A DNA stretch of 39,030 nt, from the IMG/VR virus record IMGVR_UViG_3300047408_000094, positions 1-39,030 of that record; one strand, given 5' to 3'. The position numbers and the translations under genes were made by a program. Source of the stretch: a virus. Positions 6,787 through 39,030 of the stretch are shown here, one piece after another; position 1 is the first letter of the stretch; every line of letters begins with the position of its first letter. The notes below the pieces were generated by a model. The model was not told where the DNA came from. It made no database searches and saw only the letters and a program-made list of their open reading frames with translations.

Positions 6787-8387
6787 CCGGCTACCTCTGC
6801 GAACAGCGGCCCGTCGTCGACGATGCGCTCTGTCATCATCGCCGCATAGGCCGGGTTCAATTCGATCAGGATGGCGTCGCGCTGCAGCCGGTCGGCCACC
6901 AGGCCGGTGGTGCCCGCGCCGCCGAAGGGATCGAGGACCGTGCCGCCCTTAGGGCATCCTGCCTTGATGCAGGGCTCGATCAGGTCGGGCGGGAAGGTGG
7001 CGAAGTGGCTTGTTTTGCTGGTCTTTTCGACGTACCATTCGCAGGTGCATTGAGAGAGACCGGATGCCAAGGATAACGCCTGTTCGTCTGGTGTGCGAAC
7101 GCTGCCACAAGCCGTTTGATTGCTGGGACTATCGACCAACTCGCCCTGCACGGTATTGCTCTCGGGCATGCGGTCAGCCAAATCAGAAAGCCCATGTGGC
7201 GCTGACGTGTCGTCAGTGCGGGGAGACGTTTCAGCGCAAGGCATACATGAAAGACTGGTCTCATGAACGCGGCCCGTTTTGCGGCTTCGTTTGCTATGGG
7301 GCTTGGCAGAAGGCGCACACGATTGGTCCAGCAAATCCGAATTTTGTAAGGCAGTCTCCGCTTCGGGGTGCGGGTCAGTGGGAACGGAACCGACAGCTTG
7401 CACTTGAAAGAGATCGATCCTGCCTCCGCTGTGGGGCAACGGAGCGGCTGCATGTTCATCATCGGGTACCGTGGCGGAAAGGCCAGCGCGATCCCCATGT
7501 ACTGGGCAATCTGGAGACGTTGTGCGCTTCTTGCCATCGTCGGGAGCATCCGCTGCCACACGCACCCTCTGGACGGTGGGTGTCCAGTCGCTAAAGGGCT
7601 GCGTCGCGACAGTCCAGACAGAGCGGCGGTTGCGGCCCTTGCTCGGATCGATCTCAGCCGCTTCACCCTTCTCTCGGCCTGCCCGATGCACAGTTCCGTG
7701 GCCGCCTGCCCCGGTATCCCAACCGTCTGGCTTCTTCGACTTGACCGAATTGCTCGCAACTGGCCCTTGTTGGAGGTAGGCCGTTCCTGTGCGAACGCCA
7801 TTCTCGCGCATGTCATCGCGACCGCTCGTCCAGTCCTCGCGGATGGCTTCTTGATCATAAAAATAGCGCGCGCTCTTGGAGAGCAGGAACAGGTACTCAT
7901 GCGCCTTCGTGCAGCGGTCGGTGACGCTCTCCGGCATCGGGTTGGGCTTGCTCCAAATGATGTCCTGCCGCAGGTACCAGCCATCGGCCTGCAGCGCGAA
8001 GGCCACGCGCCATGGCATTCCCATAAGGTCTTTCGGCTTGTATCCGAGCTTAGTGGCGTCAATAATCTTGTTGGCGCGAAAGCCGCCGCCCTCCAATGCG
8101 CCGCCGCCACGTTGCCCCTTGTCAAAACTGCCGCTTGGGGCGCTGGCGTAGCTATCCCCCAAGTTAATCCAGCATGTGCCATCCTTGCGCAGCACACGGC
8201 GCACCTCGCGGAAGACCTCGACCATTACCTGGACGAACTCGGCCGGCGTGGGCTCGAGGCCGATCTGCCCAACTACGCCATAGTCCCGAAGCCCAAAATA
8301 CGGCGGGCTGGTCACGACGCAATGCACGCTCTCCTCCGGCAATTCGGCCAGCTTCTCGCGCACGTCGCCCACGATGACGCGGATCAC
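6783..8387 (-). CDS. DNA methylase interrupted by an in-frame insert
   Basis: 534 residues from GTG at 8387 (GTGA overlap with the upstream gene). Motif IV is TSPPYFGLRDY (residues 26-35). The SAM-binding motif DPFGGAGTTG is at 486-495 and is followed by ILIELNPAY. The domain order IV then I is that of beta-class adenine/cytosine-N4 methylases. Related enzymes run directly from the WTVATQPFS motif (ending at S266) to HFATFP (starting at H461). Here about 194 residues separate them, and on the opposite strand the same DNA encodes an HNH endonuclease. The frame is open throughout, so a full-length fusion could be made; whether it is active is unclear. Confidence 0.88.
   Translation of the reverse strand: MIRVIVGDVREKLAELPEESVHCVVTSPPYFGLRDYGVVGQIGLEPTPAEFVQVMVEVFREVRRVLRKDGTCWINLGDSYASAPSGSFDKGQRGGGALEGGGFRANKIIDATKLGYKPKDLMGMPWRVAFALQADGWYLRQDIIWSKPNPMPESVTDRCTKAHEYLFLLSKSARYFYDQEAIREDWTSGRDDMRENGVRTGTAYLQQGPVASNSVKSKKPDGWDTGAGGHGTVHRAGREKGEAAEIDPSKGRNRRSVWTVATQPFSDWTPTVQRVRVAADAPDDGKKRTTSPDCPVHGDRAGLSATVPDDEHAAAPLPHSGGRIDLFQVQAVGSVPTDPHPEAETALQNSDLLDQSCAPSAKPHSKRSRKTGRVHETSLSCMPCAETSPRTDDTSAPHGLSDLADRMPESNTVQGELVDSPSNQTACGSVRTPDEQALSLASGLSQCTCEWYVEKTSKTSHFATFPPDLIEPCIKAGCPKGGTVLDPFGGAGTTGLVADRLQRDAILIELNPAYAAMMTERIVDDGPLFAEVAG
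7064..7594 (+). CDS. HNH endonuclease antisense inside the methylase gene
   Basis: 176 residues from ATG at 7064, preceded by GAGAGAGA. The N-terminal half has two cysteine-rich fingers (CERC...CSRAC and CRQC...CGFVC). The C-terminal half is a classical HNH core: RSCLRCGATERLHVHHRVPW, then NLETLCASCHRREHP, with paired cysteines for zinc and the HH/N/H residues. The stop (7592-7594) lies at the edge of the methylase-homologous region, so the gene nearly fills the insert in the methylase. This is expected of a homing-type element that moved into a conserved gene. Both strands are open here, but the strong HNH motifs make chance reading very unlikely. Confidence 0.85.
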   Translation: MPRITPVRLVCERCHKPFDCWDYRPTRPARYCSRACGQPNQKAHVALTCRQCGETFQRKAYMKDWSHERGPFCGFVCYGAWQKAHTIGPANPNFVRQSPLRGAGQWERNRQLALERDRSCLRCGATERLHVHHRVPWRKGQRDPHVLGNLETLCASCHRREHPLPHAPSGRWVSSR

Positions 8388-8873: not shown

Positions 8874-9341
8874 TCACGCGAACCCCCAATGTTTTCCCTG
8901 CTTTATGGCGCCTATAAGCGATCTGGAAACACCGTGCTCGGCCGCAATAACCCGTTGCACCCTGTTGTCAGTTCGGATGACCGAAACTTGCGCCGCCGTA
9001 AGCTTTGCGTTCCAGTATCTCTGCTCTCCGCGCACCCTCGACTGCCGCCCCTTCGCTTGGCGATCGGCCATGTTATCGGCGTGCGTGCCCAGCCAAAGAT
9101 GGGCCGGGTTGATACAATTCGGGACATCGCAGCTATGGCAGACGTAAATTCCGGCGGGAATGTCCCCGTTTGTGATGGTCCACACGAGGCGATGCGCGAG
9201 CCACTTCTTGTAGTTGATGCAAATTTTGCCGTAACCATCAGCATCCAGCGACCCCAGGAAGAGCCGGCAGCCGGTAGCAGGGCAATCCTCCGCGAGGAGA
9301 TCGAGCCTCTCGGATGGCGACAACAGTGCGAGGCGGCTCAC
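8874..9341 (-). CDS. HNH homing-type endonuclease (HNH_3-like) with C-terminal HTH
   Basis: 155 residues from GTG at 9341 (GTGA overlap). The core reads GCRLFLGSLDADGYG, AHRLVWTITNGDIPAG, then CHSCDVPNCINPAHLWLGTH with the metal-binding His/Cys and Asn, and NMADRQAKGRQ, all typical of HNH_3 nucleases. The C-terminal 45 residues (LTAAQVSVIRTDNRVQRVIA, then a GVSRSLIGAIKQGKHW helix) form a NUMOD/HTH-like DNA-recognition part. It sits in the early leftward unit just before the terminator. Probably a selfish homing nuclease. Confidence 0.85.
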   Translation of the reverse strand: MSRLALLSPSERLDLLAEDCPATGCRLFLGSLDADGYGKICINYKKWLAHRLVWTITNGDIPAGIYVCHSCDVPNCINPAHLWLGTHADNMADRQAKGRQSRVRGEQRYWNAKLTAAQVSVIRTDNRVQRVIAAEHGVSRSLIGAIKQGKHWGFA

Positions 9342-36129: not shown

Positions 36130-38510
36130 TACACAGGCCTCTGCTGGAGTTCGATGTTGCCCGGCTTCGGCTGCAGGCTGATCTTCAGCGCCTCGAGCTG
36201 CGCCTCGCGCTCGATCTCCTGACGCGACAGGTCGGCATCGAGCGCCGCCTTCTCGCGGGCCAACTGCAGGTCCTGCGCCGCCTTCTCGCGGGCGAGCTGC
36301 AGTTCGAGGTCGGCCGCCTCGCGGCGCAACTGCATGTCGATGGCCGCCGCCTGGCGCTTCTGCTCCGACTCGGCCTGCATCTTCTGCTGCGCCAGCGCGT
36401 TGTCGGAAACCAGCTTCTGCTGCGCCAACTGCACGTCGGCCTGATGCTTGGCCGCCGCCGCCGCCGCATCGGCCTGGACCTTGAGCATGGCCGGGTCCGG
36501 CTTAGACGGCTGGCCCTGCTGCTGCGCGGCGGCCTGCGCCACCTGCTCGGGCGGCTGGAAGAACATGCCCGGCGTCTTGAAGCCGAGCTTCTCGGCCAGC
36601 TTCTGGCTCGTGTTGGCGATGTTCTCCGGGGTCACATAGGGGCCGGTCGCGCTGCCGCCCTGTAGCAACACCAACTGCTGCTGCGCGGCAGCGATCAACT
36701 GCAGGTGCTCGAGTTCCTGCTGCGTGTTGCCGGTGCCCAGCCCGACGTTCACCGTCAGGCTCATGTCGTCCGGCCACTTCGACGGGTCGACCGTCTTGAA
36801 CGTCTTGCCGGCCCAGTACTGCGTCGGCCCCATCGCCGCCCGCTTCAGGGCGCGATAGACCAGCCGATAGATGCGCGCCACCGCCGTCTCGGCCAGCACG
36901 CGGGCGATCAGCTTCTGGCGCTGCGCCGCCGCGCTCATCAGCAGGTTCATGCCGCGCGCCGTCTTGTTGATGTCGTCGGCCTGCAGCCCCTGCGATTGGC
37001 GCGACGTGCCGGTGCGGTTCTCCTTGACCGTCTGGAAGTATTCGAGGGCGCCGAGCGCGTCCTGCATGATCGACGGCACCTTCTGCCAGTCGATGTGCCC
37101 GTCGCCCGGCTTGGCGCCCGCCTTGAAGCGGATCGGCGAGCCCGGCACCCAGTCGAGCAGGCTGTCGAGGATCACCGCATCCGACACCGCCGGACGGGGC
37201 CGGTTGGACATGTAGAGATTGTCCAGCATGCCCCGCGTCAGCACCGACGAGATCAGTTGCAGATCCTGCGTCTGGTCGAACAGCGAGCGGCCGACCAGGC
37301 TGTGCGGCATCAGGATCGGCGTGGCCAGCGCGATCGGCGCGACACCGTCCTCCCATTCCTCGCACTCGATGATGCGGCCCCCGTCCCCGCCCGAGTGGGC
37401 ATACACGATGCGCAGCATTTCCGAGACGCCGTCGCCGTTGGCATCGGCCCGCAGATAGGCCACCACCAGCCACAGCGGGCGCTCGCTGTCGCCCACCGTG
37501 TCGCGCTCGTCGCGGTAGAGCGAGGAGGCGTTGGTCGTGAGCTGGGCGGCCTCGCCCGTGTCGGTGCGGTCGCTCTGCAGGTCGTCGACCTCGTCCGGGC
37601 TCATGCCCATCTTGACCAGTTCGGATGCGGTGGTGCGCCGGATGAAGCCGAGGAACGACGCCTCGTCCTGGGTGCGGGCGTCGGGCGTGAAGCGGATGTC
37701 CTGTGGCGCGATGCTCTCCGCGACCACCTTCTGGACCTTGCGGGTGATCTCGATGGTTCCGCTGAACGTCTGCGGCGGCGGCCCCATGGGCGGCATCCCA
37801 GGCGGCATTGGCCCCGCTCCTGGCCCCGGCACCCCAGGCATTCCAGGCGGCGCTCCAGGCTGCCCAGGCATCGCTCCAGGCTGCCCAGGCATCGCTCCAG
37901 GCGGGCCGCCAGCAGCAGCCATCGACATCGCCGCCGGGTCCATGCCCGGCATCGCCCCCGGCTCCGCCGCCGGGTCGGGCGTCAGTTCGAGCTCGATCTC
38001 GGGCGGGTCGGGCTCGTTGGCCGCCTCCGACAGCATCACGTCGATGGCGTCCTGCGGCATGCCCTGGACCGGCATGCGCTGGATGTCCTCCTTCTCGGCC
38101 AGGTCGACGCTCAGCCCGCCAAGGCGGAACATCAGCGCGTCCTTGATCAGCGAGTGCAGCAGCGTAAAGCCGTCGTTCTCGACCATGAAGCAGTGGGTGA
38201 CATAATCGGTCGCCTCCTGCGCGATCGGCTCCTCGCCGGGGGCACCGGGGACGAACTGCACCACCTGATCGCTGCCGGTGAAGACCTCCATCAGGCCCGG
38301 CATGACGCTCTCGATGGTGTCGGCGAACTCGGACGTGACGACCTGGGAAGCGCCCTCCTGCTCGTCGCCGTAGGGGTCGCGGTCGTAGTAGCGCAGCGCC
38401 ACCAGGCGCATGTCGGAGAGCGTGCCCGACTGGTAGTCGCGGCTGGCTTGCTCCTCCTTGCGCAGGATCGAGAGCAGGTCGTCGTCGTCGAGGGGTTCGC
38501 GGTCAGCCAT
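36129..38510 (-). CDS. Portal protein (P22-like), with Pro/Gly insert, 793 aa
   Basis: ATG at 38510 overlaps the methylase stop (TGATG). The N-terminus (ILRKEEQASRDYQSGTLSDM, ALRYYDRDPYGDEQEGASQV) and FADTIESVMPGLMEVFTGSD are characteristic of large podovirus portals. The central part has SLVGRSLFDQTQDLQLISSV and GMLDNLYMSNRPRP, then GTSRQSQGLQADDINKTARG. The C-terminal 130 residues form a long Gln/Ala-rich helix suited to the portal barrel. Residues about 200-245 are a Met/Pro/Gly collagen-like run. This is the DNA entry ring at the capsid vertex. Confidence 0.9.
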   Translation of the reverse strand: MADREPLDDDDLLSILRKEEQASRDYQSGTLSDMRLVALRYYDRDPYGDEQEGASQVVTSEFADTIESVMPGLMEVFTGSDQVVQFVPGAPGEEPIAQEATDYVTHCFMVENDGFTLLHSLIKDALMFRLGGLSVDLAEKEDIQRMPVQGMPQDAIDVMLSEAANEPDPPEIELELTPDPAAEPGAMPGMDPAAMSMAAAGGPPGAMPGQPGAMPGQPGAPPGMPGVPGPGAGPMPPGMPPMGPPPQTFSGTIEITRKVQKVVAESIAPQDIRFTPDARTQDEASFLGFIRRTTASELVKMGMSPDEVDDLQSDRTDTGEAAQLTTNASSLYRDERDTVGDSERPLWLVVAYLRADANGDGVSEMLRIVYAHSGGDGGRIIECEEWEDGVAPIALATPILMPHSLVGRSLFDQTQDLQLISSVLTRGMLDNLYMSNRPRPAVSDAVILDSLLDWVPGSPIRFKAGAKPGDGHIDWQKVPSIMQDALGALEYFQTVKENRTGTSRQSQGLQADDINKTARGMNLLMSAAAQRQKLIARVLAETAVARIYRLVYRALKRAAMGPTQYWAGKTFKTVDPSKWPDDMSLTVNVGLGTGNTQQELEHLQLIAAAQQQLVLLQGGSATGPYVTPENIANTSQKLAEKLGFKTPGMFFQPPEQVAQAAAQQQGQPSKPDPAMLKVQADAAAAAAKHQADVQLAQQKLVSDNALAQQKMQAESEQKRQAAAIDMQLRREAADLELQLAREKAAQDLQLAREKAALDADLSRQEIEREAQLEALKISLQPKPGNIELQQRPV
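37852..37904. repeat. 21-bp tandem repeat in the portal gene
   Basis: Two identical 21-bp units (37852-37872 and 37873-37893) and the start of a third encode PGAMPGQ-type heptads in the Pro/Gly insert of the portal protein. Exact identity suggests recent duplication. Confidence 0.8.
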
Positions 38511-39030
38511 CACTCAGCCGCCACCGCGAACAACGGCGTGTCGCCGCCGCGGACGTGCGCAATGCGCGCCTTGATGTCGGCCACATATTCGGCCTCGCGC
38601 TCGACCAGGAGGCAGTCAATACCCTCGGCCATGCAGGCCATCCCGGTGGTGCCTGAGCCCGCGAAAGGATCGAGCACGGTGCCGCCTGGAGGCGTTACCA
38701 GCCGCACCAGCCAGCGCATCAGGTCGACCGGCTTGACCGTGGGATGCTTGCTGCCCAGGCGGTCGTCGGCGTCGGCCTTGCTGCTGTAGAAGAACCGCGC
38801 CGCACTGCCGCTGTCACCGAAGCCGACAGGCTCCATCGTGCCCTTAGAGAAGCCGTAGCTAGTCAGGCTGCCGTTGCCGCCTCGTGTGCCAAAGCCGCCG
38901 CCCGCATCAGGAAACGCGCTCACGACCTCGTCGCTGCCGTCGTGGACCGTATTAGCAGGCCATCTTCCGAGAGATGCGCCGTCGCTTGGCGGCTGCTGCA
39001 AGCCGTTCTTGCTGTGTCGGATAGACGAAG
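38510..39030 (-). CDS. DNA methyltransferase, C-terminal part (runs off right edge)
   Basis: 172 residues are visible, entering from the window edge without a start. SLGRWPANTVHDGSDEVVSA, ARFFYSSKAD and KHPTVKPVDLMRWLVRLVTP are standard for phage D12-like methylases. The SAM-binding DPFAGSGTTGMACM and LLVEREAEYVADI complete the enzyme. Motif IV (DPPY) is missing here but present in the partial gene at 1-293 on the same strand. The TGA overlaps the portal ATG. Confidence 0.87.
   Translation of the reverse strand, partial: SSIRHSKNGLQQPPSDGASLGRWPANTVHDGSDEVVSAFPDAGGGFGTRGGNGSLTSYGFSKGTMEPVGFGDSGSAARFFYSSKADADDRLGSKHPTVKPVDLMRWLVRLVTPPGGTVLDPFAGSGTTGMACMAEGIDCLLVEREAEYVADIKARIAHVRGGDTPLFAVAAE

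Follow-up and report, generated by a model that had tools for sequence, protein, structure and literature searches.

The window, by which we mean the whole stretch of DNA analysed here, is a virus record of 39,030 bases, in which a DNA methylase gene carries a second gene, for an HNH endonuclease, on its opposite strand (Table 1). The Pfam profile PF01555 covers methylase residues 21–518, both halves of the protein included (E 1.5e-45), and the catalytic motifs are intact on either side of the nested gene. Between the halves lies an insert that widens the spacing from a conserved W to HFATFP to 202 residues, as compared with 10 in all homologues of the first searches in which HFATFP was located. 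A preliminary description of this DNA had put the insert at 7008–7589, with a length of 582 nt. These coordinates are correct to within two ambiguous flanking codons: measured against the empty site of the nearest insert-free methylase (L008), the insert spans 576 nt, with boundaries that are ambiguous by one codon per side. That description rightly noted that the length is a multiple of three and that the methylase frame runs through the insert, where we found zero stops. It had also taken the compact methylase to be the common form, which agrees with our sample: most of the methylases are compact, about 155 of them in the fetched loci. Two further genes of related kinds lie in the window. 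One is a free-standing HNH_3 gene of the ordinary sort, which is clustered with the methylase gene (8874–9341, − strand); the other, a second N6_N4 methylase, is represented at the window edge by its C-terminal part (38510–39001, − strand).

Table 1 Features of the methylase gene and of the HNH gene nested in it
Feature	Position	Strand	Basis or remark
DNA methylase (N6_N4_Mtase), 534 aa	6783–8387	−	ORF free of stops; reads through the insert
Insert, 192 codons, 576 nt	7011–7586	−	Between PFSD and SHFATFP; lacking in compact homologues
CTC, putative clasp half 2 (CxC)	7041–7049	−	A short way upstream of the HNH start; position accurate to a few bases
Predicted disordered loop, methylase residues 302–442	7062–7484	−	AF2 pLDDT 31–47
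HNH endonuclease gene, 176 aa	7064–7594	+	Two CxxC zinc-finger pairs and HNH motif; family alignment
SPDCPVHG, putative clasp half 1 (CxxH)	7491–7514	−	Antisense to the HNH catalytic region

The identity of the nested gene was examined by profile and by fold. A longer form of its reading frame (7010–7594, + strand) matched PF01844 with an E value of 3.3e-11, which bears out the earlier proposal of a nested HNH gene. Structure prediction used an alignment of viral-contig rows only. AF2 modelled the HNH protein confidently (pLDDT 88, pTM 0.47), and the closest fold to this model was that of the HNH nicking endonuclease 4h9d (probability 0.97, E 0.03). Thus, Pfam, the family alignment and AF2 together place both an HNH motif and an HNH fold in the nested protein. 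Its stop codon falls within the methylase flank. The ribosome-binding site of the gene is weak, and a promoter scan near it returned no promoter-like site. From sequence and structure models we infer that the HNH protein would act as a nuclease, that its gene would home, and that the methylase would be translated as a fusion.

How might a methylase gene accommodate such an insert? Group I introns often carry homing HNH genes (PMC3428280), and the insert could be an intron that removes itself from the methylase mRNA, with the open frame incidental. The preliminary description had likewise listed a self-removing RNA element among its possibilities. However, an Rfam search for introns gave no match, the HNH gene occupies nearly the whole insert and leaves only some 50 nt, and the methylase frame is free of stops in every member of the family described below, with conserved Cys and His residues within it. 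A group I or group II intron is therefore not supported, and we attach a very slim probability to removal from the mRNA. Nor is an intein supported, as no intein family appeared among the Pfam matches of 54 aligned methylases, and the insert ends with KT before S, not with His-Asn.

We searched for relatives of the nested gene. Viral contigs searched with the HNH protein yielded five relatives, each of which turned out to be nested in a methylase gene, on its opposite strand and at the same site. A search with an HNH alignment returned 21 stretches, several of which repeat one locus, and two members (L151 and L229) surfaced through a pattern search for the methylase flanks. Over the N-terminal half of the insert, the alignment proved too poorly conserved to serve as a query. 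In the resulting 21 loci, which include the window and one near-identical pair (L104 and L106), every strong HNH relative occupies one and the same methylase site in antisense orientation and leaves the methylase frame open; the register is identical in every member for which it was computed. Because most members were found through the HNH sequence, the shared methylase context is not an effect of the way in which members were selected. The sampled collection is largely metagenomic; genome contigs searched with the HNH alignment gave zero confirmed relatives. Homologues that lack the HNH gene and yet share the same minus-strand domain, a case that the preliminary description had weighed against its own reading, were not seen.

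We then asked how often the antisense frame would be open by chance, by shuffling the HNH codons synonymously. For the window alone the frame stayed open with a probability of 0.07, which leaves room for the view that the HNH gene disrupted the methylase and that the frame of a dead gene is open by chance in GC-rich DNA. Across the family, by contrast, open frames were found in 19 of the 19 members tested, as against 0.6 expected, and these include phages of 44% GC; single members in phages of lower GC content reach a probability of 0.001 or less. Treating the members as independent gives a joint log10 probability of about −38, a value that is overstated because the members are related. For comparison we took five HNH genes outside methylases, of which four are free-standing distant relatives and the fifth is a weak HNH match at another place in L088; they contained 2–16 stops in the same register. 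The open antisense frame is thus clearly beyond chance for the family, while for the window alone it could be chance. Since, in addition, the codons for putative zinc ligands are kept and the methylase motifs are intact on both sides, a dead methylase is barely credible.

Which residues of the methylase reading are kept can be addressed codon by codon, as the wobble base of each HNH codon falls on the second position of a methylase codon, and silent HNH changes therefore alter a methylase residue. A Cys of the methylase reading was kept in 18 of 18 members (7.9 expected from the HNH codons) and a His in 17 of 18 (10.8 expected); together they form the motif S-P-x-C-P-x-H. At the other end of the insert, a CxC is present in all members except L091, which has CxxC instead. 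An HNH Phe followed by T, N, K, I or M, a pair that forces an antisense stop, occurred at none of 110 Phe residues (16.6 expected); this avoidance is a consequence of the open frame and thus not independent of it. Amino acid constraint in the middle of the loop reached z 10.5, no higher than in a control sense frame (11.1), and for this reason the middle seems to be merely kept open. The hydrophobicity of the loop was mostly slightly under that of shuffles, a weak effect. These data support selection on both strands, which the preliminary description had listed as a possibility; HNH codons keep the Cys and His of the methylase reading. That description had further suggested that cysteine motifs of the reverse reading could build a zinc site. 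Conservation across the family makes SPDCPVHGD and QCTCEW candidates for zinc binding, but the third motif, SCMPC, is not conserved.

The AF2 model of the methylase with its insert has a confident core that resembles M.BceJIV, CcrM and M.RsrI. The ends of the insert were predicted as three strands (residues 270–277, 286–289 and 450–458), and the predicted disordered loop between them is what most of the HNH gene encodes when read in reverse. On the basis of this model we infer that CxxH...CxC is a putative zinc clasp pinning the ends of the loop. Short CxxC...CxC units without an HNH gene occur at the same methylase site in other loci (L158, L169, L172, L180, L190, L206 and L216). Since some methylases bear such a unit, the site evidently tolerates it, and a unit of this kind is possibly where the nuclease gene first landed.

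The same features could be taken to mean that the insert works for the methylase, as a DNA-recognition or zinc module, with the HNH protein and the methylase forming a protection/cleavage pair. The insert lies just before motif X, a region that in this methylase class is near the target-recognition region; its ends are predicted to be folded, the clasp residues are conserved, and the short inserts at the same site are zinc-ribbon-like. However, most methylases manage without an insert, and most of the insert is predicted to be disordered and is unconstrained beyond staying open. We regard such a mutualism as very unlikely.

We next considered the descent of the nested gene. Insert-bearing methylases are scattered among compact ones in the methylase tree, and a single clade of them was rejected (AU test, p 4e-6). 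The nearest methylase to that of the window is the insert-free L008 (67% identical), while the HNH protein of the window is 72% identical to that of L088, with methylase cores that are only 50% identical. More generally, HNH identity tracks methylase identity weakly (r 0.23), and the most similar pairs of HNH proteins are found in methylases that are much more distant. The distribution is thus patchy and incongruent with methylase descent, which fits horizontal movement of the HNH gene, as in homing, and could include precise losses. It might be argued instead that the insert is an ancient methylase domain of single origin, dual-coded, which was passed on vertically and lost on many occasions, and whose HNH protein no longer homes or never did. 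The constancy of site and register would agree with this, as would the HNH identity of only 41–78% between members and the fact that no empty and filled alleles of one phage, such as a recent insertion would leave, were seen among the sampled loci. The rejection of a single clade and the mismatch between HNH and methylase identities argue against it, and we consider the ancient domain unlikely.

Thus, we consider it probable that a homing-type HNH gene resides on the opposite strand inside the phage DNA methylase gene with neither an intron nor an intein. What keeps both strands readable is apparently that the methylase tolerates the reversed stretch as a loop pinned by zinc. The methylase would be translated straight through the insert, and the reversed nuclease gene would become a mostly disordered loop, whose ends the CxxH...CxC clasp may pin just before motif X, such that the enzyme still folds. 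The HNH protein, translated from plus-strand RNA, would act on the conserved HFATFP site of empty methylase alleles, by cutting or nicking, and the HNH gene would then be copied into the empty allele during repair. As the insertion would split the target site, the allele that carries it would be protected, and the host gene would be spared by an insertion that never stops the methylase frame.

Other nucleases are hidden in methylases of these loci. Two of the methylases contain a second antisense HNH gene, of another family, at a second site after GSSYAS (L102, 4455–4958, + strand; L110, 4467–4955, + strand); the methylase frame is again open in the same register, with probabilities of 0.004 and 0.16, respectively. 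In L091 (4934–5446, − strand) and L115 (1304–1999, − strand), a sense-strand, out-of-frame HNH gene, similar to the ShiLan domain discussed below, accompanies the antisense HNH gene in the same methylase, and the probabilities of an open frame are <0.001 and 0.001. The Mycobacterium phages Molly (L094, 1908–2534, + strand) and SG4 (L093) have a sense out-of-frame HNH gene between CxC and CxxC, and the Molly record annotates overlapping genes 60 and 61; we did not count these HNH matches as family members, as they are nested on the sense strand in a different type of methylase. By eye, the methylase of L092 (3510–6641, − strand) also bears an intein-like LAGLIDADG insert, and that of L107 (3169–5565, − strand) an in-frame LAGLIDADG-like stretch. 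This methylase family has the look of a hotspot where hidden nucleases collect on both strands.

The general view is that a selfish gene within coding sequence must rely on RNA or protein splicing if its host gene is to be spared. If our reading is true, a gene can host a homing element without any splicing step. On balance we favor a broader proposition, that splicing-free antisense homing elements may persist in conserved motifs by means of a zinc-clasped, disordered and stop-free reverse loop, and that phage methylases may collect such elements at several sites and on both strands. The family would then provide a natural case of two proteins whose codons share the two strands of the same DNA for about 150–220 codons, so that the cost and the mechanism of antisense dual coding become testable. 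It also implies that gene annotation can hide such nucleases.

The window methylase shares its fold and motifs with the beta-class N6/N4 DNA methylases M.RsrI, CcrM and M.BceJIV, but differs from them in the extra insert before motif X. Distant relatives of the nested HNH protein, 28–33% identical, are Halovirus HCTV-5 gp104, HATV-3 gp14, Lactococcus phage AM9_113 and HRTV-28 gp29; unlike the family members, these are free-standing, outside methylases, and have stops in the antisense frame. A distant relative in Lactococcus phage AM9 (L340, 1303–1965, + strand) lies between two annotated ribonucleotide reductase alpha subunit genes and perhaps splits one such gene. Inteins and group I introns resemble the antisense family in that a homing endonuclease gene sits inside a conserved gene with a patchy distribution. 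They splice, whereas in the antisense family we found no splicing element, and it is dual coding that keeps the host frame open.

The closest counterpart is the ShiLan domain of a mycobacteriophage methylase, where an HNH is hidden on the methylase strand itself, in the third frame; the domain is free of stops, is neither an intron nor an intein, and is patchily distributed (Arsenault, Gosselin, Gogarten 2025, PMC11855218); hidden HNH genes of this type had been described earlier (PMC9957025). Compared by description, the two systems have in common an HNH ORF nested in an insertion of a phage methylase with a stop-free methylase frame, the lack of an intron or intein signature, a predicted loop, and a patchy distribution suggestive of homing. 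Since the HNH gene is on the opposite strand in all of our members, we call the antisense family a variant and not a ShiLan domain. PMC11855218 contains none of the terms antisense, reverse, opposite strand and complement and mentions no antisense case; in the ShiLan literature consulted we found no codon-level test of both frames, and the literature searched, outside which most subscription papers fall, held no case of an antisense nested HNH gene. The antisense form and the codon evidence thus appear new, while the sense-strand, out-of-frame counterpart is already published. ShiLan suggested an escape by frame overlap; the antisense family would add an escape on the opposite strand that is repeated and leaves a measurable constraint on two strands.
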